Position numbers and translations under genes: made by a program. The notes beneath the pieces were generated by a model that searched no databases, was not told where the DNA came from, and saw only the letters and a program-made list of their open reading frames with translations. Shown here piece by piece: positions 8,246 to 63,897 of a stretch of 64,000 nucleotides of DNA; the first letter of the stretch is position 1; every line of letters starts with the position of its first letter. This DNA comes from Bolinopsis microptera (lineage: Eukaryota > Ctenophora > Tentaculata > Lobata > Bolinopsidae), in contig NC_087079.1 in NCBI RefSeq assembly GCF_026151205.1, positions 14,942,445-15,006,444 on the forward strand, written 5' to 3'.

Positions 8246-8885
8246 TTGCGTATTTTGCTAGAGGTGATGTTTCTTGTGGCGGTACCGGCCCATTTATATC
8301 CATGTACGAAGCTGCCAGAATGAGTTCTGTCGAGCTGAGTTGGATTTTAATGGCCACTTGATCGGGTGTTGTGAATTGTGTAAGTTCCCAACATTTTACT
8401 GTCAGGTTTTTGTGCAGTACAATAGCGGCACGGGGTCTTTTATCCCCGACCTTGTAGTAATATTGGGTGAGATCCTTATTGATGGGTGGTATTAGGTTTT
8501 TGTTATTAGAGTACGGTTCTGTTGCAAGAATGATTGGATTTCTCCGGCCGTGAGTGTTGATAAGGAGGGTTTTCCATGCATTGAACTTGCGTTTGAGATT
8601 AATTTGGGTGACAGAGTAAGTTTCAGACTGCTTATTGCGTGCTGCAATAGTAGTTTTTAACTTTTTTTGGCGTCTCTTCTTTTTTGTGCTAGTTTGAGCG
8701 TCATTGAGCGGAGTGGAAGCCGTCCCTCCCCCTAGACAGGTATTATGACCTATCATTGCCGGTGGGGCGCTGAGGAGTTGGACAGGGTTGGGTAGCAGCA
8801 GCTGGCCCTCCAGAAGGTACGCATGGTCCCTTCCAGACAAACAGCCCCCGCCAGACCTTCCCTGAACATGGCTCCCACAGTCCAC
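8166..8885 (-). pseudogene. LINE ORF2 N-terminal part: endonuclease start
   Basis: After a basic stretch (KKKRRQKKLKTT) the translation gives VTQINLKRKFNAWKTLL and LATEPYSNN, the N-terminal strand and catalytic-glutamate region of the AP-like endonuclease that nicks the target. It then gives KRPRAAIVLHKNL and LILAASYMDINGP. It shifts frame at about 8240, where the next segment takes over. The residues before position 50 (Gly/Leu-rich) may not belong to the protein. Confidence 0.8.
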
Positions 8886-9477
8886 TCAATAGACGTTTGT
8901 GTGTGAAATTGTGTTTGTTGTTATCTTTTGTTTGTGACCATATGTTCTCACGTGGGTGCGCGCACCCGCGCGAAGATATGATTTTTTTAGCTTTTAACAC
9001 AATAATGTCGTATGTCGGTTGGACCATTGAGACTTGCCGAGAGTCAAAAGTGGTCGGTTGAAAGTAGGTTGTTGGTCTGATCGCAATGCCAACTGTCGAT
9101 TCAAAGTCCCCATCCGGCCCGACTGCAAACAACTTAACTTGCTTAAGCTGGTCGTTATGGATAGTGACCGTCCCTCCAGTTGGCACCACTGTTGGTAGTA
9201 AAGGTTGGTTTTTGGTGTTGTTACAGTATATTACTTTATAGGGTTCGTGGACGGTGCACAAAGTGCATGAGTCAGACCCAAGAGTCCGTGCACATACATT
9301 CGTGTTTGCCGAAGCACACTCTATCCACGATCTATAAAGCAAATGGTTGATCAGTGAGGGTGTATCGTGAGTTTTAACACTTTCTGCGAATCGTAGAAAG
9401 ATGCTGAGAAATACTACGACGACAGTGTTGAAATGCCGCCCAATAAAGCAGGGAAAATGGGTGCTAATGATCGGCAT
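8743..9477 (-). CDS. Unrecognised Cys-rich ORF with N-terminal hydrophobic segment, chimeric
   Basis: 244 codons on the minus strand. The N-terminus has a hydrophobic stretch that could be a signal anchor. A region with six closely spaced cysteines follows (about residues 52-84), then a Thr/Val-rich part. The last ~60 residues overlap the start of the LINE endonuclease frame in another frame, so the ORF runs across a junction and its C-terminus is probably accidental. A 99-bp piece of it is repeated at 9,967-10,065. The layout could suit a fragment of a retroelement surface protein, but I do not recognise the family and assign no function. Confidence 0.3.
   Translation of the reverse strand: MPIISTHFPCFIGRHFNTVVVVFLSIFLRFAESVKTHDTPSLINHLLYRSWIECASANTNVCARTLGSDSCTLCTVHEPYKVIYCNNTKNQPLLPTVVPTGGTVTIHNDQLKQVKLFAVGPDGDFESTVGIAIRPTTYFQPTTFDSRQVSMVQPTYDIIVLKAKKIISSRGCAHPRENIWSQTKDNNKHNFTHKRLLSGLWEPCSGKVWRGLFVWKGPCVPSGGPAAATQPCPTPQRPTGNDRS
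9081..9179. repeat. 99-bp direct repeat, copy 1
   Basis: Matches 9,967-10,065 in the same orientation with few mismatches; it lies inside the unrecognised Cys-rich ORF. The shared core includes TTGCTTAAGCTGGTCG. Confidence 0.8.
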
Positions 9478-16200: not shown

Positions 16201-19200
16201 ATGAAAACAACCAGTTTACTGCTAATAGCACTAGTAACTGCAGGAATCGGAGCCAGGGAACTTGAAACCAACACTTTAGCGACACAAAAACAAGGTAATA
16301 TTGAAACCTTCGGGTCCTTCAGAAATACACAAAATGACAGTGAGCAACTGCACCCGTGTCCTGCTCCGACGCTTCCTCAAGGAGAAATGTTTGATCAACA
16401 ACAAATGGTACTACAAGTGCACAAAATCTAATAGATTTTACAGGATCTTTCTTGAGACGTGTGAGGAGACTACTTTCTCCAGAGTTTGTCCTAATGACAC
16501 AACTTTCTACCAAGCCTGCGGACACGACAGTTGCGGATCGCATAAGAAAGATACCTATAAAAAGTCAGCTACTGATCTGGAGCCTATCTACGGTTCAAAA
16601 GTGGCAGTGTGTGGAAAACCAATCTGTGTGTCGGTACCCATGAAGAAGACGTCCTTCTTTCAAGGAAATCCTTATTGGTTAAACGATTTAGTCTCAAATA
16701 CCAACCAACATAAAGTGGGCACAATCAAGAATAAAAACAAATGGGATTTGACACGATGCAAAGAAACCAGTAACTGCGAGAATGAGATCGAGGGAGTAAA
16801 AGTTGATCACTACGGCTGCGGAAAAACGTATGATTATAAATGCGCCATCCCTGACAGGAAGAGCATAGAGAAACAGTTGCTGTGTGATAAAAAATGTGAC
16901 TGTAAATTATGTGATGATGAAGCAAGATGCCACAACATGACGGTTGGGTTTTTCTGCGAGGAAGAGAATGATAGGAAGGTATACATTACGCCTGGGCAAA
17001 TCATAGATGTATGTGATGGTATCAGGAGGGCTGTTATACTGGATTTCAATTTAATTTTTCAATATGCTTTGGCGGAAATGAGATTTGCAATGCACCCTTA
17101 AGCCAAAATATAATAATCTTATCGCCTCTATCCAAATGCTCGATTCCTGATCCTGTTTCTCTATTCCTGATTTGTGAAGACTATGAAGACCAGATGAACT
17201 GCTCTCATTCCACAATCAGTCCACTAACATGTAATGTGAACGGTCACTCAACTACGATCTCCGAGTACATAATCTGCAAGGACTTGATTCTTTGTGATGA
17301 CAATTTGGATGACGTCTGCATTGACGCGGAGTTTCAATGTACGATACACAAACACAAGGGTTTGCGATGGAATTAACGACTGCTTAAACGGAAACGACGA
17401 GAAAGACTTCTTCTGCAAGGATTTGGTTCGTCAAGAGATTAACTGTGTCAGACGACTGTCATACAACAAGTCTGTTACAAAAATACCCCGACAATGGATC
17501 ATGGATGGGGTGGTGGATTGCATGAACATGATTGATGAAGATTCTAACTCGTGGGCAAGGGAGTGCGGCTGGGGAACACAAGAAATATACTCGTTTTCTG
17601 GCAAGAGTAGTGAGGATTGCAGTCTGATCACCCAGCTTAAGTGTCCAAAATCAGACAGCAGAATAAACCTAGATCGAGTGTGCACTGGAAAATCTTATAA
17701 CTGTGATTCCCAGGTATGCTTTGCGGCCCGAAAAAATTACGTGGTCATGAGTCGAGTAAAAACAAGAATGAAAAACGGCGTCGTAACATTGCTTTACTGT
17801 TTAAAAGGACTATACAGCCTTGAGAGAGTGGCAGGAAAATGTGCTCCACGCCAGGCTTACTCATCAAAAGAGAGTTCATGGAATTGAAGATTCCTATGTC
17901 ATAACTTCACAGAAATATGCCAAATCCTACATTGATTGGCAGACATCTGTTTGGGAGAGTATTTGGTGTATGTGTCGTGCGCCGGACACTGTTATCAACA
18001 GGACGCGTGTCCCATCAAACTCTTACTCCTTCTAACTGTCTCAACTTCCCCAAATCAAAACTGGTTTTCTCACTGGCATGGGACGACGACCTTGGCCATG
18101 GGCTGTTAAAAACAGCAATGGGTTCAGCAAGGAGTATTTTGCTTGCAAAAGTGGACTTTGTATTGAGTTTGATAAAGTTTGCAACTTAGAAGATGACTGC
18201 AACGATCAATCCGACGAGGAGAACTGTATAAACAATTTCAAGTGTGAATCAGGCGAGTTTATTCCTCTTTCCAAGAAGTGTGACGGAATATTCGACTGCT
18301 ACGGCTACTCTGACGAGTGTAACACTGAGTGTTACAACCAAGTAAAAATGTTCAATCACTCTTCACTACTTGTAGTTGCGTGGGTTTTTGGGATAACCGC
18401 CATTTTCTTGAACGTATTCACTCTGATAAACGGGTTGAGGGAGTACCCGAAACTAACAAAAGAGACTGCTCTGATAAACAGTGTTTTGTCTTGATGATTA
18501 CAGTAGGTGACTTGCTGCAGGGGAGTCTTCCTGCTCCTCTTGGCAGTAGTGGATACCTTCTTTAACACCACCACCCTGCATCACACAATTTGAATGGACC
18601 ACAAGTAAACTATGCACCGGCTTGGGAATTCTCTCCACAATCGGCTCTTTAGTGTCTCTCTACTCAATGACGATCCTCAGTATCATCCGTGCTTCAACCA
18701 TTGATCCCTTGTTGGCACCCGCGGACGGTTTGGTCTAGGAAAAAGAAAGTCTACCTAGCTACTACAGTGATAATAGTGCTTTTAAGCGCCTTTCTCTTCG
18801 CTATATTTCCAGAAATCACATTGGAGGACTAGTTTGGTTCAAAATCTCACTACAATGACAATCCTCTTTTTGTGGGAGCTCCAAATAAGAAAAAGCACAT
18901 ACAAATCTTGGAAGCATACTATGGGAGATCATCAATGCATGCAGATATGCCTTGGGAGACTATTACGAACCTTGTGAAGGTCATGTTTGAGAATGATCAT
19001 GTTGTGGGATCAAACGTTGGTTTTTACGGTGAAAATGGATTTTGTTTGTTCAGCTACTTTGTCAGAGAGACTACTCCCTACCGATGGTTCTCAATTACAG
19101 TCCTCTCTACAAATCTGTTCTGTGGTGCTGATAATCGATGGTGCTACATCATGGTTAACATACTTGCTACCAGAATTCAGGTGCTGCTGCTGGCTACAGG

Positions 19201-30314: not shown

Positions 30315-32972
30315 TGATTGAAATAAATTTTCGTGCACATACAGAATGAATGGTTAATAATTTAATATATATGTAGACCAAGGTCTGTGCACGGGATGCT
30401 TCCTGGAAGAATCCAGTTCTTTTAGCGGGGCACCCTACCTAAAGCCAAATTGAGATATAATAATCATATTCCTAAGAAATAATCAGAAATCGAATACCAA
30501 TCAAATAATATGATATACATGAGTAGTAACCATATTTACTATGCAAAATGCCCCAACCACATAGTGTAAATTTATATAGAATTCAAATTCCATATCATCA
30601 TTAAACCTCAATACCTAGTCAATATAATAGCCCAAGCAAAATTAAATAACTTCTTATATACCTTACTGTCATACTACAAATTAATTAAACATTTGAAATC
30701 TGTTGACCAGAGAATAAATTTCTAAGCCTAATGCAAGTGAAATAATTTAGATGCAATAATGAATGCCTAATGTGAGTATCATTTGTCAATGTCCTTGTAA
30801 AAAAGTCTGTACAAGAGATATGAGTAACTAATATAGAAGAAAAAACAGGAAGTTGTCGTCTGTTGTAAAATAAATAAAATATCTAGAATATAAATTAGAA
30901 TATAAAATAACATTCAGTCAATGTGTCGTCAATAAACTGTACAATTATCAAATGTTAAAACTGGGTGATACAGTCACCAAAAAAAATACTAAGTATGATA
31001 AGTTAATAAATTAAATGTGGTCTATAAAACTACCACTAAGTATAATAGGTCAATAAATTAAAAGTGGTTTATAAAACTACCACTGTGGGAACCCCTTCTC
31101 CAGTTAAAACATGTCAGTCATGTGCAAAATCAATCAGAATGGTAAGGTGGTAAAAAAGGGAATATCTTTTCGATACGTCAATTATATATGCCTCAGATTT
31201 AAAAGAATTAGAAGTTACTTAGTTATCGTCGACTATGATTGCAGTGTAAAATTTGTCATATGAATTGTCGACGGTATAATTAGGGTCTGTTGTTATAGAT
31301 GATAGTAGCTGTTTCTTATACGAATCACTAAAGCTTTTAACATCGGGCAGATTTCGTAGATCTGTTGGAACATTATTCCAACATTTTGCCCCCAAGTATT
31401 GAAAGTTTTTATGTGATGTTGATCTATTGACATAAAGGTTGCAGCTTTCGCCGCTCCTACTACCTCCTGATATGTAACTAAATTTGTTCACAAAGTTTGT
31501 AGGACAATTGTCATGGATGATTCTAAACATATAATTTGACAGATGGAGTTGTCGTCTAAGATGGAGTGGTAACCATTTCATGTCTCTATAAACATTAAGG
31601 CTGCTCTCTGTTTTTGGAACGTTGAGAGCTATTTTGGCTACCTTTTTGTACAGAGTGTCAAGTTCAGCAAGTTTTGTCTTGCCAGCTCTACAATAGATCG
31701 TGTCTAAATAATCGAATTGTGGCAACATGAGTGCATTGGCAAACATTTTCCTATATTTAATGGGTAGCAGTGCTTTACTTCTATACATGGCACCGATTCT
31801 CTTCATGACCTTCCTAATAATATAATCTACATGGCTTTTGAAGTTTAATTTACTATCTAAAATGAGGCCAAGATATTTTGTCTCTTTGCACTCCTTGATT
31901 GTGAAAGTTACCTCATTACAATCAATGGTTATTTCATCATGTTGGTCAACAGAATCAAACAATAGGAATTCAGTCTTCTTTTCATTGAGTGATAATTTAT
32001 TAACACTGAGCCATTTAAAGATTGTCATAAGTTCTATTTTCATGTTTATAAATGTGCTTCTGCAGGTTTGATCAAAGAATAGTGCACCATCATCTGCAAA
32101 TAGAAAGGGCTTAGATAGGTTACAGGCATAAATGATGTCATTTATGAAGATACTAAATAATATAGGCCCAATGATGCTTCCTTGTGGTACACCACTCAGA
32201 ACTTCTAAAAATGAGCTTAGATTGCCATTGATCCTAGTGCATTGATATCTACAAGATAAGAAGTTCTTAAACCAGGTTAAAGCAATGCCACCAATTCCAT
32301 AATATGCCAATTTTTGAAGCAATATTTCATGATTCACTGTGTCAAAGGCCTTCTTAAGATCAAGAAAGATGATTCCTGGTTTATAAGACTTAGATTTACT
32401 CATATATATTTCGTCCATCAGATCGTACATCAGATAAGTTGTGGAGTGATTTTTCCGAAAGCCATATTGATGCCGGATGAAAAGTTTGTTCTCTTCCATG
32501 TAATCAGTGAGTTGCTTGCCGACAAAGTATTCTATAAGTTTTCCTACAAGTGGAAGGATGGATATTGGCCTGTAATTATTAGGATCATCTTTCATTCCTG
32601 CCTTATGGATGGGAGTTACTCTAGCTTTTTTACAAAGGGTTGGTACAACACCTGTATTAAGGCTCAGATTGACAATGTGGGTCAGTGGCTCAACTATGTG
32701 TGGTACAGCTTGCTTAAGTAAAAATAGAGGCACATTGTCATATGAGGCCTTGTCATTCTTGAGCGTTTCGACATACATTAGGATATCAGTTTCATTTATT
32801 TCTTGGAATCTATCAAATGAGATATTAGAAGTTCTAGGAGGTAAAAAATCAGTAAAACTAACTCTTTCAATATTGGGGGCCTGATTTTGTAATCTTGATC
32901 CAACATTTGCAAAATGAAAGTTAAATAGCTCAGGATCATTCTCATTGATAGTTTGACAATTAGTTGTACCAG
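30315..32972 (-). mobile_element. 5'-truncated LINE (CR1/L2-like) in the right arm only
   Basis: 2,658 bases on the minus strand. The left arm holds the uninterrupted target (28,352-28,366 region), so both edges are exact to within a few bases. The RT reading frame is open back to the 5' edge, and about 900 bases of 3' UTR follow the stop at 31,219. No clear target duplication and no long poly(A). The RT C-terminus ends with CWNNVPTDLRNLPDVKSFSD, a tail typical of CR1/L2/Rex-like LINEs. Confidence 0.85.
31219..32778 (-). CDS. LINE reverse transcriptase, intact but 5' truncated
   Basis: 519 codons without interruption; the same frame stays open upstream to the element edge at 32,972, so the methionine at 32,778 is internal. 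RT motifs in order: RVTPIHKAGMKDDPNNYRPI, QYGFRKNHSTT, motif A IIFLDLKKAFDTVNHEILL, motif B SGVPQGSIIGPILF, and the catalytic box PFLFADDGALFF, then KTEFLLF and KYLGLILDSKLNF. It copies LINE RNA at the nicked target. The endonuclease domain is missing, so the copy cannot move by itself. An intact frame indicates a fairly recent insertion, later than formation of the palindrome. Confidence 0.9.
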   Translation of the reverse strand: MYVETLKNDKASYDNVPLFLLKQAVPHIVEPLTHIVNLSLNTGVVPTLCKKARVTPIHKAGMKDDPNNYRPISILPLVGKLIEYFVGKQLTDYMEENKLFIRHQYGFRKNHSTTYLMYDLMDEIYMSKSKSYKPGIIFLDLKKAFDTVNHEILLQKLAYYGIGGIALTWFKNFLSCRYQCTRINGNLSSFLEVLSGVPQGSIIGPILFSIFINDIIYACNLSKPFLFADDGALFFDQTCRSTFINMKIELMTIFKWLSVNKLSLNEKKTEFLLFDSVDQHDEITIDCNEVTFTIKECKETKYLGLILDSKLNFKSHVDYIIRKVMKRIGAMYRSKALLPIKYRKMFANALMLPQFDYLDTIYCRAGKTKLAELDTLYKKVAKIALNVPKTESSLNVYRDMKWLPLHLRRQLHLSNYMFRIIHDNCPTNFVNKFSYISGGSRSGESCNLYVNRSTSHKNFQYLGAKCWNNVPTDLRNLPDVKSFSDSYKKQLLSSITTDPNYTVDNSYDKFYTAIIVDDN

Positions 32973-50304: not shown

Positions 50305-50579
50305 GATAAATCCAGCAACTAAATCTGTATCTTTACTTAATTTTGATGAAATTTGAAATTCTCTAATCTAGGAACAAATCGCAGTTTACGCGCACACAAC
50401 GATCAAAGTAACATGTTGTGGAATAAGCATCGCTATCGCCTTTGCGTAATTTAAAGCGTCCAAAAATCCCCAATGTAAGTTATGATGTGTCTGTATTCAT
50501 GTACATTTTATAAAGAACAACACATTATATATAAATAAGTTTTCCGTATAAATGTATTTTAATTAGCTTATTCCGATAA

Positions 50580-52902
50580 CAGATCTCGCGTAAGGCCGAG
50601 CGTGAGTTTGAAACGATTTTGTTAGTTTGGAGGAGCATCACGGCTCTCGACAGTCAAAGTACAAATACGAAATGAAACTAGGCAAATGTGATAACAAAAA
50701 TGGAAATAATACGGACATGTGCACCTGACGTTTCAGCACTTACTGGCCTTTTACGAAGGATATAATTTAAAAGTGAGGGCAGTCCCGCTATAAAAGAGGG
50801 GGACGTGTAATTAGGTCGTAAGCTAAAGTAAACACGTATTAGAGTGCAGGACTGAAAAGGCCCAATTAGGCAGACAGCAGATTGGAAAGTGATATTGTTA
50901 GGTGATTAGTGTAAAGGATCTAATTAAACATAGTGTATTAAACCCTGATAGGTAAAGTTAAAACACATTCAAGCTGGCATGCTACAGATTGCTAGTAAAA
51001 GGTAAAAAGGAGGATACATCGCTACTCGGTAAACCCGTTACTCTGCATATTGTTAAGTTTAGGTTTATTGGTACTAATAAGCATTCCCTCATTGATAAAA
51101 GTTTCTAAAGTGTCTTTACATTTTCTGCAAAAACTACGAAGCTCATATCCCAACAGCATGACTGTGCCGAACAGTGCAGACGGTTTTCAAGTTTCACTCG
51201 ACGTCGAGAATATGTACTCCACACTCCCCACCGACGACAGAGCTCTCAACGTCATCAAGAGCTACATCGAAAAGAACAATGACCAAATAAACATGCTCGG
51301 CTTCAGTACATCACATATCCTCTCAATGTCGGAATTCGTACTCTCCCACACATACATCAAATCAGGGAACAAGTTCTATCTCCAGAAGAGAGGAATAGGG
51401 ACAGGGTCACACAGCTCCGGAGCATATGCAGAAATACTTGTGGACCACACCTACAAAGTCGCAAGTCAGAAGACCAATCTACAACCAGAGTTTATTGCCA
51501 CCTATGTTGACGACGCATGGCTCTTATGGACTTCCTCACTGGAGGATTTCGAGAAATACAAAGATGCTCTCAACTCTGTCTGGCAATCCGTAAACTTCAC
51601 CTACGAGATGCCGGTTAGTGGGAAACTCAACTTTCTGGACCTAACCGTAGAATTGATGAAGACCGGAGAAATCACCCACCAACATTATCAGAAACCAACC
51701 GACTCAGGACGATACCTCCATCACGAGGCCCACTGCAGTCACATCACCAAAACGAATATAATCAGGTCAGAAACACGCCGGATCATTCGTAACTGCAAGT
51801 ACAAAGAAGATTCCTGGCCGCACTTGGAGACCCTGAAACAGAACCTAGTCTCAAAGTCCGGATACCCCACCAAATCAGTGACGGCTCACATGCTCCAGGC
51901 CATGGAGCAAATGGAAAAGAGGGACCTAACGGACAGTCAGAAACCCACAGCACCCTCCCCCGACTACGTCCTCAAGATTCCATACATCAACGAAGGCTTT
52001 ACCAGGAAAGTTAGCTCCACAGTCAAGAAAGCGGGAATAAACGCCAGAATCGTGACCCAAGCTGGCAGATCTGTTAAAAGCCTTATCAGTGAGAAAACAA
52101 AGAAAACATGTGACTGTGAGCTCTGCAAGTCAGGAAACGACTGCTTCACCAGTCACTTCGTTTACCAGGCAGACTGCAACACATGTGGAAACCAGTACAT
52201 CGGAGCCTCAAGGAGACCGCTGAAAAACAGGCTCAGGAGCACGAAAGCAGTTTTAGATTGAACAACAGCCGTACTACGCTAGGCCAACACGCAGCGGAGC
52301 ACCGCAAAGAGAGCAACGAAATATACCGCCCCAAAGCGGGAACCAGGGACTTCGAGAAGTTTTTAGAATTTTACAACTTCAATATCGTAAGAAAATGTCA
52401 AGACACTTTAGAAACTTTTATCAATGAGGGAATGCTTATTAGTACCAATAAACCTAAACTTAACAATATGCAGAGTAACGGGTTTACAGAGTAGCGATGT
52501 ATCCTCCTTTTTACCTTTTACTAGCAATCTGTAGCATGCCAGCTTGAATGTGTTTTAACTTTACCTATCAGGGTTTAATACACTATGTTTAATTAGATCC
52601 TTTACACTAATCACCTAACAATATCACTTTCCAATCTGCTGTCTGCCTAATTGGGCCTTTTCAGCCCTGCACTCTAATACGTGTTTACTTTAGCTTACGA
52701 CTGAATTACACGTCCCCCTCTTTTATAGCGGGACTGCCCTCACTTTTAAATTATATCCTTCGTAAAAGGCCAGTAAGTGCTGAAACGTCAGGTGCACATG
52801 TCCGTATTATTTCCATTTTTGTTATCACATTTGCCTAGTTTCATTTCGTATTTGTACTTTGACTGTCGAGAGCCGTGATGCTCCTCCAAACTAACGAAAT
52901 CG
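50580..52902 (+). mobile_element. Penelope-like element with inverted terminal repeats
   Basis: 2,323 bp. The flanks TTATTCCGATAA (50,568-50,579 and 52,903-52,914) are a 12-bp target duplication, and the target is the 201-bp repeat. Terminal repeats of 513 bp are inverted: 50,614-51,126 and 52,390-52,902. The right repeat contains the real 3' end of the coding region; the left one is its inverted copy and is preceded by 34 extra bases. The coding region is cut at its 5' end by the left repeat, so the copy is not autonomous. Penelope-like elements are known to have terminal repeats in either orientation. Confidence 0.85.
51127..52494 (+). pseudogene. Penelope-like RT plus GIY-YIG nuclease, 5' truncated, one frameshift
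   Basis: The frame that begins at 51,050 is native only from about 51,127. RT motif A is FQVSLDVENMYSTLP, then GIGTGSHSSGAYAEI, and the catalytic box ATYVDDAWLLW has YxDD, as in Penelope-like RTs; the N-terminal RT motifs are missing. A linker with a Cys motif (TCDCELCKSGNDC) leads to the GIY-YIG part (HFVYQADCNTCGNQYIGAS then RRPLKNRL). Near 52,230-52,260 the frame shifts. The continuation (EHESSFRLNNSRTTLGQHAA and so on) is in the frame ending at 52,494, inside the right terminal repeat. The RT and GIY-YIG nuclease together would copy RNA at a nicked target. Confidence 0.85.
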
Positions 52903-52914
52903 TTATTCCGATAA

Positions 52915-53043
52915 ACAAATTCTGATTTTCTTGCAGTCAATTATATACCTTCTCATATAATACTAATTGGAAGCCAAAGACCATCAGACTTGAATTTTCA
53001 TCAGGGCCATGATCACTTAAACTGCCGATGTAATATTATAATG
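52915..53043 (+). repeat. 201-bp tandem unit, part left of the poly-G element
   Basis: ATAAACAAATTCTGATTTTC to AATATTATAATG, identical in order to the units at 56,001-56,940. The Penelope-like element lies at its left border and the poly-G element at its right border. Confidence 0.85.
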
Positions 53044-53619
53044 GGGGGGGGTCAACCTCATTTTACCTCATGAGGCCAGCCAAAAAAGGCAAAATTGGGA
53101 TGAGGTAAAATGAGGTAAAATGAGGTAAATAAATCTAGTTTTCTAAGCCTTTTTTTAGAGACAAAAAAGGTTTATTCGAAGTCATTATACTATAATTCGA
53201 GGCTGTGCATGGTCTCCCATGATATTTAATGGTTTATTAGGGGTGATGTGGTCCCTGGGAAGGGGCATTCCCAGTTTAACCTACTTACTCTCCAAAATTG
53301 GGGTAAATAAAACTTCGCATTATAATTATTATTTATGAAAAGAAAATTGCACATTTCAATTTCCATGATCCATTAGGAAATTGTTAATAGCACTTGCTAA
53401 GTTTTGTAAAGGAATTAGCAATAACTTTAGTGTCACTTTGGCAGTTGCCAATTTATGGGGATATTTCCGCATTGCATGACATAGACCATTTAAATAATAT
53501 CTTAGTTTGATATTGCGATTATCGAGTCACTCTGAAACAAATTGTGTCTAACTAGACCAAATTTAAACAACAGTTGTGCATGGAACTGGATTGGATATCT
53601 ACATGAATTTAGTCGAAAT

Positions 53620-54049
53620 CAGGAGGTGACCGGGATTGGCAATTTTGAGCTATCCCGGTCCCGGTCAAATGCTGATTTATGATCCCGGTCCCGGTCCCGT
53701 TCCCGGTTAATTTAGGATTCTTGGTCCCGGTCCCGGTCAATCACTCAAATTTGCCGGGATTCTGACCGGGATCTTTTACATAATTTCATTCACTGTGATT
53801 TTAAGTTTTTCCTTTCATTCATTGTGAATTTTATCTTTAAACATCCTCTGAGCCAAATAAAACAATGTTTAAAATTGCTAAACAAGTTTGAGTAATAAAT
53901 TATGATCAGCAATCGACCAGAATTCCCGGTACCGGGAATCCCGGTACCGGGATTGGCAATTTTGAGCCATCCCGGTCCCGGTCAAGTCACATTTTGTATC
54001 CCGGTCCCGGTCCCGGTCAGGCCTGAAATCATGTCCCGGTCACCTCCTG
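53620..54049. mobile_element. hAT-like MITE rich in CCCGGT
   Basis: 430 bp with perfect 15-base inverted ends CAGGAGGTGACCGGG and an 8-bp duplication GTCGAAAT (53,612-53,619 and 54,050-54,057). CA...TG ends plus 8 bp suit the hAT superfamily. Both subterminal parts hold runs of TCCCGGTCCCGGTC and the block TTGGCAATTTTGAGC. Confidence 0.85.
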
Positions 54050-54312
54050 GTCGAAATTGCATCTAGTGAAAGGTCATTTCATAATAAATTACTCATATAA
54101 ACTCATACTTCATACAATTCTAAGTTCTTATCATGTACATGTTCAATGTTCATGATTCGCTGTAGAATAAAGGGCGGTTCACAAAACCACTTTTCGTTCA
54201 AATAATTAGATATCACCTCTAATTAGTTGCTCTACAGGATCAGGAACAACCAAACAATATTTTGTGTCTACGGTTTCGTATAATACTGACTTGGGCCACG
54301 CCCATATTTATT

Positions 54313-55899
54313 ACCAATTTTTAACAGGTAAAATTATCTAAATCGTCAATTTAGTCACGAAGGAGTTTGGAAGGAGTTCTAAATGTGTGCTCCTCTACTA
54401 TAAACAGTAGGAAATGGTTAACTTTAGTCGAGGTTTCAGGTCTCTACAATGTCGGGAAGTTCCTGCAGGAATTTGCGCATTGCGCTGAAGCGCAAGATTC
54501 ACTGCGCCAAAAGCGAAGGTCGTAGAGACATGAGACCTTGACTAAAGTTAACCATTTCATACCATTGCTATCAGAGTATGCCACTTTCAGAGTCCTGAAC
54601 ACACTCCTACAGCTCTTAATCGTCAATTATATGAATTTTACCTGTTAAAATATATCATCTTTAACTGATATCAATTTAGTTTAAAACACTGTTAGTTTTA
54701 AAAAAGAACATATTACTTCACACCAAACTAACGCACAATATGATAATATAAAAAAGGAAGGTTTTCCTTGGATTCCGAATTCAACTTTGATTATATCCTG
54801 GCACTGATTATCATTTCTCGATTGTTCTCCATTTTCCAATGCAGTCAGCAAGTTCCAATTTAGGTAGACTAGGTTTTCGAATCTTCATATTATGTTCAGA
54901 AGCAGGCCAGAAGGGGTTGTTACCAGAGGAATGTCTTCTTGGAACAAGGAATTAATGAGGTCTTCATTTATTTCTTCATAACTCGTCACTGACAGTCCGG
55001 ACAGGATGAGCATTGACGACATCCACTGATTACTTCATAGCTCGTCACTAACTGGATCAGCATAACATGACTAATAACTAACGAGGTCCAGTGATCTCTT
55101 GCTGATACGTCAAAACAAGATCAGTAAATAGCTATAAAATCGAAAAAAATAAGCTGAGAAATTACAGAGTACAAATGCCTTCTTCACAACTAACTCTTTG
55201 GCCTCATCTTTTTAAATCACTCATTCCCTCTGAAACAAGATAATGCTTAGGACTAGGAGGAACTTAGTTAACTTCTTGTATAATTCGGTAAGAGGAAAAT
55301 TCCTTAGTAAGCTAACATTCTTTTGTAGGATGTTACCACTTATCATATCTGTTATCCAGCATAATCCCACAACTAGACCCTCTTATTCTGGAGTCTTGAC
55401 AATGACAGCAGCAATGTACACTATTTTGATGGTCCAGGTCTCCAAGAAAACCTTCCTCTAGCTCTTTATATTCTCATATTGTGTGTTAGTTTGGTGTGAA
55501 GTATTATTTTCTTTTTTAAAACTAACAGTGTTAAACTAAATTGATATCAGTAAAAGATGATATATTTTAACAGATAAAATTCATACAATTGACGATTAAG
55601 AGATATGGGAGTGTGTTTAGGACTCTGAAAGTGGCATACTCTTATAGCAATGGTATGAAATGGTTAACTTTAGTCAAGGTCTCATGTCTCGACCTTCGCT
55701 TTTGGCGCTGTGAATCTTGCGCTTCAAGCGCAATGCGCAAATTCCTGCAGGAACTTTCCGACATTGTAGAGACCTGAGACCTCGACTAAAGTTAACCATT
55801 TCCTACTGTTTATATTAGAGGAGCACACATTTAGAACTCCTTCCATACTCCTTCGTGACTAAATTGACGATTTAGAGAATTTTACCTGTTAAAAATTTT
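54313..55899. repeat. Large foldback inside the poly-G element
   Basis: Arms 54,313-54,774 and 55,439-55,899 are inverse copies with a moderate number of differences, around a 664-bp spacer. Each arm holds a smaller foldback with ends GGTTAACTTTAGTC and a GCGCAATGCGC-type core. The spacer (54,775-55,438) has no accepted gene; the frame at 55,243 is doubtful. Confidence 0.75.
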
Positions 55900-56000
55900 T
55901 GCCGAAATTTACCTCATTTTACCTCATGAGGCCAGCCAAAAAAGGCAAAATTGGGATGAGGTAAAATGAGGTAAAATGAGGTTGACCCCCCCCCTATAAT

Positions 56001-56950
56001 GTATGGTGAACATAGTTGAAATAATTTGTCCTTGTAAATGTATTTTAATTAGCTAATTAGCTTAATCCGATAAACAAATTCTGATTTTCTTGCAGTCAAT
56101 TATATACCTTCTCATATAATACTAATTGGAAGCCAAAGACCATCAGACTTGAATTTTCATCAGGGCCATGATCACTTAAACTGCCGATGTAATATTATAA
56201 TGTATGGTGAACATAGTTGAAATAATTTGTCCTTGTAAATGTATTTTAATTAGCTAATTAGCTTAATCCGATAAACAAATTCTGATTTTCTTGCAGTCAA
56301 TTATATACCTTCTCATATAATACTAATTGGAAGCCAAAGACCATCATACTTGAATTTTCATCAGGGCCATGATCACTTAAACTGCCGATGTAATATTATA
56401 ATGTAAGGTGAACATAGTTGAAATAATTTGTCCTTGTAAATGTATTTTAATTAGCTAATTAGCTTAATCCGATAAACAAATTCTGATTTTCTTGCAGTCA
56501 ATTATATACCTTCTCATATAATATTAATTGGAAGCCAAAGACCATCAGACTTGAATTTTCATCAGGGCCATGATCACTTAAACTGCCGATGTAATATTAT
56601 AATGTATGGTGAACATAGTTGAAATAATTTTTCCTTGTAAATGTATTTTAATTAGCTAATTAGCTTAATCCGATAAACAAATTCTGATTTTCTTGCAGTC
56701 AATTATATACCTTCTCATATAATATTAATTGGAAGCCAAAGACCATCAGACTTGAATTTTCATCAGGGCCATGATCACTTAAACTGCCGATGTAATATTA
56801 TAATGTATGGTGAACATAGTTGAAATAAGTTCTCCTTGTAAATGTATTTTAATTAGCCTATTCCGATAAAACAATTATCATTTTCTTGCAGTCAATTATG
56901 TACCTTCTCATATAATATTAATTGTACCTTAATACCATCAATCAATATCG
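56001..56950 (+). repeat. 201-bp tandem array downstream of the KDZ-like gene
   Basis: Units start at 56,001, 56,202, 56,403, 56,604 and 56,805 (the last one partial and diverged), starting GTATGGTGAACATAGTTGAA. Together with 52,915-53,043 and the left flank at about 50,530-50,579 this was one array before two elements entered it. Read on the minus strand, each unit carries ATTAAA, a possible poly(A) signal for the gene that ends at 56,965. On the plus strand each holds TTTTCTTGCAG, like a splice acceptor. Confidence 0.9.
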
Positions 56951-56964
56951 AGTAAGTCAGTACC

Positions 56965-59900
56965 TTAATTATAATCAAGACTGATGTATTTACTGAAACC
57001 AACCTTTTCAACATCGAGTTTTTCAAATCTTTCAGACAACGATACCAAATTTTGCACCCTGTTAACAGTGAATGTCTTTAAAATTTGGCCACGGATGTAA
57101 TCTACGTCGTAAGACTGATACATTCTTCCAGTGATGAGGCACCAAGCATTGAATAGGGAATGCACTCCACAATTCACAGCGTCATTTTGCTGCTTGATGT
57201 TAACGATCTTGATGTTTTTCGCTTTTGGTCGTAACTGCAACGCAGCAGATGTGAGCGCCCCATCATACGTATCAATAATAACATATTCGGCTGATGACTG
57301 CACCTTACCCCTTCCATAACACGAATCAAAGATAAGAACAGTTTCTGGATCTCTTTGACTGAGGTTCGAAAAAAGGACCCAATGGTTAGAGTTGATGTTA
57401 ACAACTTGGAAAAATACCCCATCAAGTGGTGGCATCAGTCCTCTATTAGTCAACAGTGTGTCCTGGTTGCTGACGTGGCGTTTGTTAAGCTTCCTGTACT
57501 CCTTGACCAGCATCGAAGAAAAACTGTTAATAATCGTTCCATTCAACTCAGATTGGCTATTGTTCAGAATTCTGGATTCTGTCAAATACATCTCTAATCT
57601 GCCTGAGATAGGGTGAGCTGTCACCCAAGCTCGAGAAGGGCCTGCAATATCATCTGGCAGTTCATCAACATTGACGTATTCTGCATTTGGGTTCGGGGTC
57701 TGTGAATATCTTCTCTTTTTGGGACTGGGCTCTTTATCTATCTCTTCTTTTTGGACAAGTTTGTACAGGACCATCTGACTGCTCTTATGGGCGGCACGCA
57801 TGTACTCTTCTCTGGTCAAGATCGATGTCGAGGGTCCATCGAAATATACATACTCATCAGCATTATGATCGTAACTGTATGTGACATAATGCCCCAACTC
57901 AATTGCTCCATGATAAGAAATAAAGCTTATCAATCTATACACAAACTTAACCTCAATTTTCTCGGATGACGTGGACTCCGAGAGAGCAATTATTTCTTCT
58001 TTGATCGATGATATTTCGGTACAGTCGATTGTATCTTTCCCCTGCACACACAACCTATTTCTAGTGGGCGAGATAAATATGTAGTCAATATCAGCAGCTT
58101 GTGTATCACAAATAAACGCAAATATGTCTTCTAGAGGCCCACCTAGCAAATGAATATGACGTGTTCTCTCAAATGCTACTCCGCCTAGCTTTAATATCGG
58201 GAATACCAAACATTCTATAACCTCGCACACATCTTGAGGCTGACCAAGAGAATACAGATGTCTCTGATTGTCAGGTTTGTTGGCTTTGAGCTTTTCAAGA
58301 CATGCTGCCGCGAAATTTTTCTGGACGTTTTTGACATACGCAGTGGAGCAAATCATCTTCAAAAATTTGGCTGCAAGCTCAGTCAGCTTATTCCTATTCT
58401 TCCACCTATCAGCATTTTCAGCAAGTACGGTGTTCAACTCTACTGAAATGAGCATATATGAGATTGAATTAAGCCAGCATAAATTGTTACCTCCCTGAAG
58501 TTTTATAGCCTGATGGAATTTAGACCGTCTTCTTTGAAAATTTGGATTAGTCTCACTTTTTTCTTGTTTAACACCAGTATCAGCAGAGTTATCGGAACTG
58601 GTTGCTGCTTTCTTCTCTCCCAAATTTGCTTTTGGAATTCCGCTAGTTTTTCTTGTAGAGATTTGTTTGCTATCAGTAACAAAAGTTTTTGTGTCTGGAC
58701 AAAAGCTGATATTCGCATGTAATTGCTTTTGAACATTAATTCTATTCCTTTCGTTAATTTCTGCATTCTCTATTGCAGTAACATATAGCAAGAACTTAAC
58801 GAATCTGTCATGGCTCATGGAGCACATTAAATACGCATATTTCTTGAAAAGGGAATTTCGCTGCTCTTGGATCTCGAGATTGCTGTGTTCTTCAATCAGT
58901 TCTTTCACAGCAAACGGATCATGGAGAGCAGCGTCAGCGCCAGTATGATTTGGACGGTGAAAGGGATCAATAAACATGTATCGACCTTTATCTTCCCAAA
59001 TTGTCGGGATACTGATTTTTTCTCCGTCGAGGAGCTTCTCAATGTTTTGTTGAGTGTTTTCCATGATCATACCTCCATAAGGAGAGAGAAATCCGGGGGC
59101 TACAATTTCCATGTATCGCGAAAGCTGAGGGGCGAAGTCAATAACTATGACAGAGGGAGCTTTTTTAAAAGAAAGTAACATCTGACAGTAATCGGAAGCA
59201 CCCTCTGGACCTACCAAGACTTTCATGGCGTACACAACACCGTGCTTGCAAAATCCCCGCGCAACCCCTCCAGATCTTCCGCCCAATTTAAAAAATTGGT
59301 GCGCGAATTCATCGTATCCAACGTTACTTGCTACAATAGCGTTTATCATGTCAGCTTTAGTGTTCGGTAATGGTCTTATACCAAGTGCTTGACATAGTTT
59401 TCTTATCGTTAAGCGGCTGTTCCCTCCAGTCTTGATGTCCTCCAATACATCATGACTGATGCAGAAAGGAGTTCTGGCAGGGCCTACAGATGGCTCTTTC
59501 CTGAATGATTGTGGTTGTTTCTCCGCAACTGTACTAGATCCGAGGAAGGGTAACCAGTCTAAGCCCACTTTCAAGGAAAATTCCTTTACCACCTCCTTGT
59601 TATGTGAAAGGGTTTTGGCAATGTCTCCTTGCTGGACCTTGTGGAAAAACACCTTGCAGTCATCGTACTTATGTTCCTTTTCCTTCTCTGCCTTGTAGGA
59701 GGGTGGAATTCTAAAGGTAACTTTCCTGGTGGCATCAAAGCAGAGAAGGAGAGGGTTATTACCACATATCCCACAAACCATTTCCAATGGAATGTCTTTC
59801 AGGGACATATAGAACCCCATGATATTATAGACAACCTCATGAACAAAACTCAAATTAAAATCTCTCTTCAAGGAGTTGAGTACATCAAGCAGTGAGGTGT

Positions 59901-61362
59901 GAGAAAGCTGTCTACTTAAAATACATTCTAACAGCTTTACGCTAACTACATTGAAGTTGTTATAGTTGATCCAACCGGACCTGTACTCTAGGTGTTTGTA
60001 AGAAACCCCACACTCACTGCAATCCTTGACAAATATGGGCCGGGTGGTGGAGTTAGTTGTAGTGCTGTATAATTTACACCCCTTTTTCAACTCCCTGAGG
60101 ATTAGGGTAACGCCACACCGATAGCAGTTTTCCTCAGAAGGAGTAAACTCGTCCGGTATAATTTCGAGTAAAGCCTCTGATGTGAGTGGAAGCTTCAGTG
60201 GAACAGTTTTTTCTCTCAGTATATAATCAATCATGAAATTTACGTCGTCTGTTTCTGGCTGCATATTTTCCGAGTCAAGTGTATTGACTTCAGGTTCAGG
60301 TTCTGCACAGATGATAAGCTCCGGGTGTATTTGAAGTAGATACATCTTGCTAATCATTATGTGCAGACAAGTTGGCCCATGTGGACAACGACACGTAAAA
60401 TGCTTATGTGCTAAATCAACTGTTGTAACCACACGATTAAATTCCGCATACTGTGAGTTATCTTGCGGATCGTATACTGATAGGTATAAGTAAGCTGGAG
60501 ATTTACTCAACGTTGTATCCTCAAAGAGGACCACTAGAGGAGCGTCATTGTCTCCAGAGGCTTTCAGAAACCTATCATTAATCCGTTCCTTAAGACGATC
60601 GGTGAAATTCATCTTTCCGACTTGTTTTATATCGAATGGCTGCTTTGTTTGGAGAGCAGCATAGTCGGTGGACTTGAGATGTTCGCACAAATATGATACT
60701 CGATCGTTAAAGTGCGCAATTTTGCGAGCGTCCCTACACAATTTGTCGTGGCAGACGGCCATACAATTTCCAGGATCTGTGCTATGAATGACATGCACCG
60801 GTGTCCCTGATCCGCTTTTTGCCTTCCTTACCATAAAGATTTTTTTTGCTGGATCTATCAGCATACTTGCTCTTAAACCTGTCTGTGTATGATATGACAT
60901 GTGACGTTTAATGTATGATGCTGCAAAGAACTTATGACAGATAGAACACTGACTACCACTTCTATTTTTAGAATCTGATTGGGCAACATTGACATTTTCC
61001 GTGGATGGTGCAGTTGCTGATGGAGTGTCCTTCTTAATTCTTTCCGTTGTCCGAGGGTCCTCCAAACAAACGACTATGTGCTTGAATAATCGGCCGATTG
61101 TTTTACAGCTGTACCAACACTGTGGGCAATGATGGTGGTACCTTCCAGGTTTCTGATCATCAATCACACAATATTCCGTTCCTAAACGGCATCCATGTAA
61201 AGTACGACCTTCAACAATCTTAAACTTACAGAGATGTTCCTGACAGTGCTTTTCTAAGTTGTCTTTGACTATGCCTGGTCGACAAAGCGAACACTGACCG
61301 TTAAGAATAAGATCAACTTCGGTGAGGTTGTTATCGAACAACAAATGTTCAGCACCGTCCAT
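56965..61362 (-). CDS. KDZ-like transposase protein fused to USP and Ulp1/SENP protease domains
   Basis: 1,465 residues, one uninterrupted exon. Visible parts: Cys/His pairs at 24-45 and 76-86; a C2H2 finger, C139-C142...H154-H158; a SWIM-type finger FTCRCPHGPTCLHI (C324, C326, C332, H334); CxxC clusters at 413-416 and 448-451, of the kind found with KDZ (Kyakuja-Dileera-Zisupton) transposases. A transposase-like core spans about 510-860: D543 in LLCFDATRK, GGRSGGVARGFCKHGVVYAM (694-713), D742 in VIVIDFAP, FIDPFHRPNHTGADAALHD (797-815) and a possible third acid, E830/E833. A linker with basic patches leads to a USP domain: Cys box GGNNLCWLNS (C962) and His box ELGHYVTYSYD (H1158) with YVYFDG. 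A Ulp1-like domain follows: H1327 in SNHWVLF, D1346 in LIFDSC, Q1391/Q1392, and C1398 in NCGVHSLF. The core order resembles vertebrate HMGXB3. Roles in transposition and in removing ubiquitin or SUMO are inferred from the families. No inverted ends were found. Confidence 0.85.
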   Translation of the reverse strand: MDGAEHLLFDNNLTEVDLILNGQCSLCRPGIVKDNLEKHCQEHLCKFKIVEGRTLHGCRLGTEYCVIDDQKPGRYHHHCPQCWYSCKTIGRLFKHIVVCLEDPRTTERIKKDTPSATAPSTENVNVAQSDSKNRSGSQCSICHKFFAASYIKRHMSYHTQTGLRASMLIDPAKKIFMVRKAKSGSGTPVHVIHSTDPGNCMAVCHDKLCRDARKIAHFNDRVSYLCEHLKSTDYAALQTKQPFDIKQVGKMNFTDRLKERINDRFLKASGDNDAPLVVLFEDTTLSKSPAYLYLSVYDPQDNSQYAEFNRVVTTVDLAHKHFTCRCPHGPTCLHIMISKMYLLQIHPELIICAEPEPEVNTLDSENMQPETDDVNFMIDYILREKTVPLKLPLTSEALLEIIPDEFTPSEENCYRCGVTLILRELKKGCKLYSTTTNSTTRPIFVKDCSECGVSYKHLEYRSGWINYNNFNVVSVKLLECILSRQLSHTSLLDVLNSLKRDFNLSFVHEVVYNIMGFYMSLKDIPLEMVCGICGNNPLLLCFDATRKVTFRIPPSYKAEKEKEHKYDDCKVFFHKVQQGDIAKTLSHNKEVVKEFSLKVGLDWLPFLGSSTVAEKQPQSFRKEPSVGPARTPFCISHDVLEDIKTGGNSRLTIRKLCQALGIRPLPNTKADMINAIVASNVGYDEFAHQFFKLGGRSGGVARGFCKHGVVYAMKVLVGPEGASDYCQMLLSFKKAPSVIVIDFAPQLSRYMEIVAPGFLSPYGGMIMENTQQNIEKLLDGEKISIPTIWEDKGRYMFIDPFHRPNHTGADAALHDPFAVKELIEEHSNLEIQEQRNSLFKKYAYLMCSMSHDRFVKFLLYVTAIENAEINERNRINVQKQLHANISFCPDTKTFVTDSKQISTRKTSGIPKANLGEKKAATSSDNSADTGVKQEKSETNPNFQRRRSKFHQAIKLQGGNNLCWLNSISYMLISVELNTVLAENADRWKNRNKLTELAAKFLKMICSTAYVKNVQKNFAAACLEKLKANKPDNQRHLYSLGQPQDVCEVIECLVFPILKLGGVAFERTRHIHLLGGPLEDIFAFICDTQAADIDYIFISPTRNRLCVQGKDTIDCTEISSIKEEIIALSESTSSEKIEVKFVYRLISFISYHGAIELGHYVTYSYDHNADEYVYFDGPSTSILTREEYMRAAHKSSQMVLYKLVQKEEIDKEPSPKKRRYSQTPNPNAEYVNVDELPDDIAGPSRAWVTAHPISGRLEMYLTESRILNNSQSELNGTIINSFSSMLVKEYRKLNKRHVSNQDTLLTNRGLMPPLDGVFFQVVNINSNHWVLFSNLSQRDPETVLIFDSCYGRGKVQSSAEYVIIDTYDGALTSAALQLRPKAKNIKIVNIKQQNDAVNCGVHSLFNAWCLITGRMYQSYDVDYIRGQILKTFTVNRVQNLVSLSERFEKLDVEKVGFSKYISLDYN

Positions 61363-61372
61363 TTATCTGCTG

Positions 61373-62635
61373 TCACATCATTTGTATGTCAGATTACTGA
61401 AAAACTGTGGGAATAATTGTTAATAAACACGATTTATTCAGTATCCAGTTCTTCAAACTTGTATTAGTTATGTAATTGTAAGGATAGCCAATAACCATAC
61501 GATTGCAGCAATAAATTTATCAAATTAGTACAGCTTTTAATTGATGTTTTGGGACAAAGTGAGAGTCTCCACTCAGTTTTTCGAACAAACATTTTGTCCC
61601 AAAACATCAATTATATGATCAACCCACTCAAAAGAGCGAATACAGATTATCAGTGCAGTTTTTGTTTAGTTAGAAAATTGTATGACTTAATTATTTTTCT
61701 CTGTTCAACGAATCAATGATTATTATATTAATTATAGTGGTTCGATAAATAGTTTTGAAATAATCATTTAACCAAATCTGCCTTCGTGAAGCCTGACCCC
61801 AATGTGATAATTATGGACATTTTAACGTCCAATATTAGCGCTTAGCTCCCATAACATCGGCATTAGAAACCAGGATATCTTGTATTAAATGCTGTAATTG
61901 CTACTCACGAGAGCGCAAAAAGGCGTGGTTACATAACTCATGCTCTACCCCTACAAGTGGAGCTCCAATCAGACGCGGAGTGATTTTGATTTAGATGTCG
62001 CGAAGGCGCCAAAAAAGGGCGATGTCAATTGCGCAAAACTGTACCATACTTATAGTCAAAATTTCTACCCAAGTTAAATTTGTTTTTGATGGGTCCCTTG
62101 AGTTATCCCAAGTATCAAACCCCGGGGTGGAAGTATTTTAGACGGGAATGTTTTCGGATCCTTGATTACTTTTAATTTTCGATAATTTTCGTAATTTATT
62201 TGGTTGTAATGACAAAAATTCAAAACATTCTCAAAAACTGACGAATAATGACAGGTGAGGCTGGAGTAATAGCACTTAAAAGGAATTCATTACTTACTAA
62301 AGAATGCAGCACTCGGTGGAGGAATATCCGTAAACTCACAGTAAACTCTGGTGCAGATCCTCCCCAGTAAACTCACAGTAAACTCTGGTTCAGATCCTCG
62401 GATGGGCGTGGTCTAGGGGCGTGGTTACTCTGTAATGTGGGCCTGCTCGTGCGAATAGTCTGCTAACAATCCTTATCATAAAGCGTTCACTCCTAGAGGC
62501 AGTGGTGGGTTAACATTCAGTGTACAATAACTACATAATATGGGGATTACTGAGATTACTATAAAGCAGTTCCAGATAATATGTCATTATGTAGGGCTCA
62601 CCTTTATAACTTTATAATAACTCTGTGTTGCTCTG
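61373..62635. repeat. 1,263-bp direct repeat, copy 1 (5' flank of the KDZ-like gene)
   Basis: Begins TCACATCATTTGTATGTCAG 11 bases upstream of the start codon and ends in TTGCTCTG. It is followed directly by a second copy with few differences. It holds a 76-base hairpin (61,538-61,613), GGCGTGG boxes near 61,923 and 62,404-62,424, and a 38-39 base repeat (AAACTCACAGTAAACTCTGG) in two copies near 62,333-62,398. It probably contains the promoter; no TATA box is convincing. Confidence 0.9.
61538..61613. repeat. Hairpin in the 5' flank, 20-22 base arms
   Basis: AATTGATGTTTTGGGACAAA at the left and its inverse at 61,592-61,613, with a ~33-base loop. The second tandem copy has the same at about 62,801-62,876. 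It may be a small MITE or a regulatory stem. Confidence 0.75.
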
Positions 62636-63897
62636 TCACATCATTTGTATGTCAGAATTACTGAAAAACTGTGGGAATAATTGTTAATAAACACGATTTA
62701 TTCAGTATCCAGTTCTTCAAACTTGTATTAGTTATGTAATTGTAAGGATAGCCAATAACCATACGATTGCAGCAATAAATTTATCAAATTAGTACAGCTT
62801 TTAATTGATGTTTTGGGACAAAGTGAGAGTCTCCACTCAGTTTTTCGAACAAACATTTTGTCCCAAAACATCAATTATATGATCAACCCACTCAAAAGAG
62901 CGAATACAGATTATCAGTGCAGTTTTTGTTTAGTTAGAAAATTGTACGACTTAATTATTTTTCTCTGTTCAACGAATCAATGATTATTATATTAATTATA
63001 GTGGTTCGATAAATAGTTTTGAAATAATCATTTAACCAAATCTGCCTTCGTGAAGCCTGACCCCAATGTGATAATTATGGACATTTTAACGTCCAACATT
63101 AGCGCTTAGCTCCCATTACATCGGCATTAGAAACCAGGATATCTTGTATTAAATGCTGTAATTGCTACTCACGAGAGCGCAAAAAGGCGTGGTTACATAA
63201 CTCATGCTCTACCCCTACAAGTGGAGCTCTAATCAGACGCGGAGTGATTTTGAATTAGATGTCGCGAAGGCGCCAAAAAAGGGCGATGTCAATTGCGCAA
63301 AACTGTACCATACTTATAGTCAAAATTTCTACCCAAGTTAAATTTGTTTTTGATGGGTCCCTTGAGATATCCCAAGTATCAAACCCCGGGGTGGAAGTAT
63401 TTTAGACGGGAATGTTTTCAGATCCTTGATTACTTTTAATTTTCGATAATTTTCGTAATTTATTTGGTTGTAATGACAAAAATTCAAAACATTCTCAAAA
63501 ACTGACGAATAATGACAGGTGAGGCTGGAGTAATAGCACTTAAAAGGAATTCATTACTTACTAAAGAATGCAGCACTCGGTGGAGGAATATCCGTAAACT
63601 CACAGTAAACTCTGGTTCAGATCCTCCCCAGTAAACTCACAGTAAACTCTGGTTCAGATCCTCGGATGGGCGTGGTCTAGGGGCGTGGTTACTCTGTAAT
63701 GTGGGCCTGCTCGTGCGAATAGTCTGCTAACAATCCTTATCATAAAGGGTTCACTCCTAAATCCTAGAGGCAGTGGTGGGTTAACATTCAGTGTACAATA
63801 ACTACATAATATGGGGATTACTGAGATTACTATAAAGCAGTTCCAGATAATATGTCATTATGTAGGGCTCACCTTTATAATAACTCTGTGTTGCTCT
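62636..63897. repeat. 1,263-bp direct repeat, copy 2
   Basis: Same order of motifs as copy 1, including the hairpin, GGCGTGG boxes and the doubled AAACTCACAGTAAACTCTGG. Small differences include AAATCCTAGAGG where copy 1 has AGAGG and loss of about ten bases near the end. The last 103 bases of the window, after this copy, hold nothing recognised. Confidence 0.9.

Follow-up and report, generated by a model that had tools for sequence, protein, structure and literature searches.

A Transposase-Like Protein Carrying Both USP-Type and Ulp1-Type Protease Domains in the Ctenophore Bolinopsis microptera

The DNA analysed here is a stretch of 64,000 nucleotides from Bolinopsis microptera (contig NC_087079.1, positions 14,942,445 to 15,006,444; hereafter the window). 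On its minus strand, at 56965..61362, a transposase-like protein that includes a USP and an Ulp1 protease domain is encoded by one uninterrupted open reading frame (ORF) of 1465 codons, running from ATG to stop and matched by full-length relatives elsewhere. Three Pfam families exceed their curated cut-offs within this single frame, namely CxC4 (residues 405-501), UCH (residues 1125-1200) and Peptidase_C48 (residues 1320-1426), and the order along the protein is a zinc-finger-like region, a SWIM motif, CxC4, a transposase-like core, the USP domain and the Ulp1 domain. A first-pass annotation, made from the letters alone, had described a single ORF joining a KDZ-like transposase core to two different ubiquitin/SUMO-type cysteine proteases; the frame and the residues it named are indeed present, and the pairing of the two protease types in one transposase-family polypeptide is borne out by the profile matches and by catalytic residues kept in eight of eight members of the lineage described below.

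The USP-type domain (residues 950-1205; 57748..58515, minus strand, as for all features of the protein) is recognised by PF00443 (UCH, 27.3 bits, above cut-off), by its predicted fold and by its conserved residues. The putative catalytic set comprises Cys962 (58477-58479), His1158 (57889-57891) and Asp1175 (57838-57840), which are kept in all seven lineage-A rows of the alignment, with the partial relative P0006 making eight of eight. In addition, a structure model of this region, of low confidence, returned 50 listed PDB matches that are all USP-family by title. The Ulp1/SENP-type domain follows at residues 1250-1440 (57043..57615), where PF02902 (Peptidase_C48) scores 30.3 bits, above its cut-off, and SENP5 is the best Ulp-type PDB profile match (E 0.012). 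Its predicted catalytic residues, His1327 (57382-57384), Asp1346 (57325-57327), Gln1392 (57187-57189) and Cys1398 (57169-57171), are kept in 9/9 alignment rows covering them and in 8/8 lineage-A sequences.

The amino-terminal part of the protein is rich in cysteine and histidine. A zinc-finger-like region (residues 1-165; 60868..61362) is defined by invariant alignment columns (C24, C27, H39, H43, C58, C65, H76, H78, C79, C82, H95, C99, C139, C142, H154 and H158); zinc-finger profile matches in relatives are weak and below threshold, and Pfam gave none in this region of the window protein. Next comes a SWIM-type CxC..CxH motif (residues 324-334; 60361..60393), supported by a family profile and by C324, C326, C332 and H334, which are kept in all nine rows covering them. 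The SWIM finger proposed at first pass thus stands as a conserved motif, and not as a Pfam domain, the SWIM model being absent from the window-protein matches at E<=10. The CxC4 cysteine cluster (residues 405-501; 59860..60150) is recognised by PF18717 at 29.3 bits, above cut-off.

The transposase-like core occupies residues 510-885 (58708..59835) and is identified by conserved acidic residues and by family profile matches. Row conservation in a 10-row alignment (seven lineage-A rows and three outside rows) points to D543 (59734-59736), D742 (59137-59139) and E833 (58864-58866) as candidate catalytic residues, the two aspartates being present in 10/10 rows and the glutamate in the 9/9 rows that cover its position. 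Core profiles built from lineage A matched two further loci of the same genome, L034 (1.8e-47) and L035 (1.2e-32), and a fish protein, P0007 (5.6e-40), with the best shuffled decoy at 0.045. Within the core, a SAP-like segment (residues 649-676; 59335..59418) was placed by alignment to the SAP matches of L034 and P0007, both below cut-off and the latter just under it; Pfam gave no SAP match in the window protein itself.

Searches over 5.8 billion predicted proteins for homologues with the same domain order, a check that the first-pass annotation had proposed, recovered four full-length relatives and one partial one. The first three full-length relatives (P0002-P0004) share 40, 40 and 32% identity with the window protein at BLAST coverages of 99, 99 and 85%, a fourth (P0005) shares 41% identity with 99% coverage of a 962-residue query, and the partial relative (P0006, 933 residues) shares 40%. 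P0002-P0005, which are predicted proteins whose DNA was not seen, can be aligned to the window protein over its whole length. Together with two copies in the same genome, L032 and the longer frame of the broken L033, these sequences and the window copy form what we call lineage A (n=8). CxC4 exceeds its cut-off in five of the eight, the window protein included; P0006 and the longer L033 frame are without that part, and P0005 keeps the cysteines with no match at E<=1. A more distant relative is P0007, an uncharacterized protein of the fish Pseudorasbora parva (25% identity), in which a SWIM motif, CxC4, the same core and Ulp1 are followed by CxC7, above its cut-off, and an F-box-like stretch; UCH gave no match in it at E<=1.

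In the ctenophore genome itself (264.65 Mb, 232 contigs), at least 37 protein matches to the window protein were recorded, 32 of the 93 candidates having been scored. L032, on contig C1, is an intact lineage-A paralogue of 1481 residues in one ATG-to-stop frame, in which CxC4 and UCH pass their cut-offs and C48 falls slightly short, whereas L033 (C10) is broken into two frames of 520 and 1366 residues. At 3969-5155 of L033, a 60-bp repeat in 19.8 copies adds about 400 residues to the charged linker that precedes the USP domain, with the frame still open. Fragments of lineage A also occur on C13 (up to 87% DNA identity to the first codons of the window ORF), C7 (86-87% DNA identity to L033) and C5 (73% protein identity). 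A second lineage, B, grouped by DNA similarity, comprises L034 (with an open frame of 1746 residues), L036, L037, L038, L040, L041 and L042, and a third, C, is represented by L035, whose Ulp1 match reaches 51.6 bits. In L037, a 22-bp tandem array of 28 copies (8080-8695) lies beside the lineage-B frames; its length apparently differs in L038, L041 and L042. In the tree of the 10 core rows the seven lineage-A rows group together (98/99); the mutual order of the three outside rows is unsure because their branches are long.

Comparison among these copies argues for selection on the frame, as had been suggested at first pass, with nonsynonymous divergence (dN) at 0.3-0.6 per domain and synonymous divergence (dS) saturated. 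Against L032, dN is 0.32 for the core, 0.55 for USP and 0.41 for Ulp1, with the proportion of synonymous differences (pS) per domain at 0.82-0.97 and saturated; taking L032 and L033 together, the ranges are 0.31-0.32, 0.55-0.56 and 0.34-0.41. The linker between core and USP is under much looser constraint: it gives a dN of 1.14 and a dS of 1.17 against L032 (25 codons only), and a dN of 0.84 with saturated dS against L033 (46 codons). Since low dN accompanies saturated synonymous differences, both proteases are selected as proteins, and the comparison shows purifying selection on each, with USP the less tightly constrained.

Related members of the family are mobile. L034 (C1:14762053-14774603; 12,551 bp) and L036 (C2:1177359-1188474; 11,116 bp) sit on separate chromosomes and have sharp ends, and where their main segments align, identity is 96.8-98.6%; their starts were placed four bases inside the BLAST edge, using the repeat scan for the first copy and the printed sequence for the second. 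The ends form inverted repeats (left, GAGTTCATGAATCCGAGATTTTGGAACA; right, read inward, CAGAAGATGAATCCGAGATTTTGGAACA) and are flanked by 8-bp target duplications, CGCGAAAT and AATTAATT, which makes the wider family a genuine DNA transposon; in addition, each copy has a 325-bp tandem array at one end. Target duplications of Zisupton are likewise given as 8 bp in PMC12730594. Both mobile copies keep the Ulp1 residues but not the USP catalytic residues: in the USP-like stretch of L034 the cysteine has become serine and the histidine is lost, and of two profile comparisons one recognises the stretch at E 1.5e-5 and the second supports it weakly. The simplest reading would be that USP was gained in an ancestor of lineages A and B and then decayed in B, and a gain in lineage A alone may be the alternative. 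Since the fish relative gives no UCH match and the mobile relatives keep the Ulp1 but not the USP catalytic residues, the added USP domain is what sets one lineage of this family of Zisupton-like transposases apart.

Components of this protein have precedents. HMGXB3-like animal proteins carry the CxC4 cluster and are not known to have these proteases. Helinoto, an icefish Helitron2, reportedly has three deubiquitinase-like domains; as far as its title goes, it resembles the present case in bearing such domains on a transposon and differs in being a Helitron with no Ulp1 named. Ulp1-type peptidases have been described in plant Kaonashi Mutator-like elements (PMC6117577) and in the oomycete Cryptons CryptonF and CryptonS (PMC3212892), which have a transposon-borne C48 in common with our protein but use another transposase or recombinase, with no USP described in the excerpts available. 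Among the closest known systems is Zisupton/KDZ of fish and fungi, which shares the 8-bp duplications (found in L034 and L036), the CxC clusters and a long multi-domain transposase. The platyfish Zisupton is reported to have CxC7 and, as one of its isoforms, a version with an F-box (PMC12062965), the two kinds of feature seen after Ulp1 in P0007, where the F-box-like stretch is below threshold. The window protein differs from Zisupton/KDZ in lacking a match to the KDZ transposase model and in having a USP domain, and its gene is single-frame, whereas Zisupton is given as multi-exonic in PMC9297572. No description of both protease kinds in one transposase was found in the accessible text of the open-licence literature, in line with the first-pass impression that the combination is unusual. 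What would be novel, judging from these comparisons, is the fusion of a transposase to both protease kinds with both catalytic sets conserved; transposon-borne Ulp1 was already known, and deubiquitinase-like domains are reported in at least one Helitron.

Taken together, we consider that the window protein is probably the transposase, or a lineal descendant of the transposase, of a Zisupton-like family of animal DNA transposons, with a USP domain added before Ulp1. The KDZ-like assignment of the core is based on CxC4, on homology to P0007, the fish protein that carries CxC7 and, below threshold, an F-box-like stretch, and on the 8-bp duplications of related elements. Several observations weigh against the overall reading. 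The KDZ transposase model PF18758 is unmatched in the window protein (E<=10) and in four core segments, and it is not among the P0007 matches at E<=1; the structure model of the core is poor (predicted local distance difference test score, pLDDT, 40) and its fold search gave no significant match, to an RNase H-like DDE core or any other fold. The KDZ-like label proposed at first pass thus draws on CxC4 and on relatives and not on the family profile or the fold. In P0007 the F-box-like match falls short of its threshold (17.6 vs 24.3 bits). Within lineage A, moreover, UCH and C48 each reach the Pfam cut-off in only 4/8 sequences, with UCH unlisted for the longer L033 frame and C48 unlisted for P0005 and P0006 (E<=1). 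Finally, no inverted repeat with an 8-bp duplication was found around the window copy in a scan of 49000-65395.

This last observation also bears on whether the window copy descends from such a transposase but has been domesticated by the host, being immobile and serving a chromatin role that needs both proteases, which we regard as possible on a minority estimate. Its frame is intact and no near-identical second copy was found: with the last kilobase of the coding sequence as query, one locus matched at the DNA level. Its nearest intact relative in the genome is a paralogue with about 50% protein identity, which is under purifying selection, and the mobile DNA around the gene is nested or fragmentary. 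Given the single DNA locus, the distance to that relative and the lack of any ends found around the gene, the recent activity of this copy that the first-pass annotation had entertained is not supported. On the other hand, the lineage-A debris on C13, C7 and C5 and the broken L033 are what transposons would leave, and an active transposase would show selection as well.

A USP domain of the USPL1 (SUMO isopeptidase) kind rather than a deubiquitinase, such that both proteases act on the same modifier and the protein is a double deSUMOylase, is conceivable, albeit somewhat doubtful. Peptidase_C98 (USPL1) matches weakly in two of four lineage members (best E 0.0022, none shown above cut-off), and the cysteine box of the lineage reads NLCWLNS, which we take to be a departure from the usual USP form. 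The Cys-His spacing of 196 residues suggests a compact domain without the typical fingers insert. UCH, however, matches in 4/4 members tested and does so better (best 3.4e-7), and the listed structural matches, USP-family by title, include USP18, solved with ISG15, though none of those listed is a USPL1 structure. Given the weak USPL1-type matches, the USP domain may cut either ubiquitin or SUMO.

It is rather improbable that the USP domain is an inert or vanishing binding or scaffold module with Ulp1 as the only enzyme. USP has the highest dN among the domains, and the mobile L034 has lost its USP cysteine and histidine and kept its Ulp1 residues; against this, the cysteine, histidine and aspartate persist throughout lineage A despite fast divergence elsewhere in the domain. 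That two genes have been run together and the domains never meet in one protein can practically be set aside, for even though P0002-P0005 are known as proteins only, they are single predictions with matching starts and ends, and at the DNA level the window copy and L032 each show one ATG-to-stop frame.

The gene lies between tandem arrays. Downstream, beginning 40 bp past the stop codon, is a 201-bp array of 4.7 copies (55995..56924), found only at this locus; it was formerly longer, and insertions at about 50.6-52.9 and 53.0-56.0 kb now interrupt it. Upstream, immediately before the ATG, a non-coding unit of 1263 bp is present twice in tandem (61370..63895). Part of this unit and its outer flank (61785-64726) recurs on C4 (L048) at 90-98% identity, as a single copy without the gene, and the sharp edge at 61785 is common to L049. 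One insertion, at 50533-53043, is by eye a Penelope-like element with a reverse-transcriptase-like frame (51158-52261), a frame of 103 residues and inverted flanking arms; it has inserted into one of the 201-bp units and seems to be accompanied by a 12-bp duplication, TTATTCCGATAA. The other, of about 2.95 kb (53045-55990), splits the 201-bp array, carries the same 72-bp sequence in direct orientation close to either end (53055-53126 and 55911-55982) and holds a foldback element (54316-55897) with arms 94-97% complementary. Farther off, frames at 4939-9477, in several pieces, and at 31219-32778 resemble by eye non-long-terminal-repeat retrotransposons (reverse transcriptase and RNase H-like), and consecutive cysteine-rich frames at 16334-18494, with LDL-receptor-class-A-like repeats by eye, are perhaps exons of a host surface protein.

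How might such a Zisupton-like transposase work? Binding to DNA or chromatin would fall to the zinc-finger-like motifs, SWIM motif, CxC4 and SAP-like segment, and the cutting and joining of DNA to the core with its conserved D, D and E, as presumed for its relatives. A Ulp1-type protease after the core is a trait of the wider family, and a USP between the two a trait of this lineage. Both domains are predicted to be catalytically active cysteine proteases, removing ubiquitin and SUMO or some other tag of the ubiquitin-like kind; their substrates may be the transposase itself or, where it inserts, chromatin and repair proteins. Removal of these tags could confer resistance to turnover or to SUMO-dependent silencing. 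It is tempting to speculate, and we do so tentatively, that this two-enzyme module removes ubiquitin and SUMO at target sites as a counter-defence against both SUMO-dependent silencing and ubiquitin-driven turnover, in which the ubiquitin-pathway slot would be contested, being filled variously by an active USP, a dead USP-like remnant or the fish F-box-like stretch.

A DNA-transposon lineage may thus tamper with the protein-tagging systems of its host, and relatives elsewhere keep the same layout. The protein described here offers a defined, testable case for asking if silencing based on SUMO and ubiquitin is a direct target of transposons, with the mobile relative that is without USP catalytic residues as a natural control. 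A domesticated window copy would instead be a de-modifying enzyme of dual specificity that brings its own DNA-binding part.

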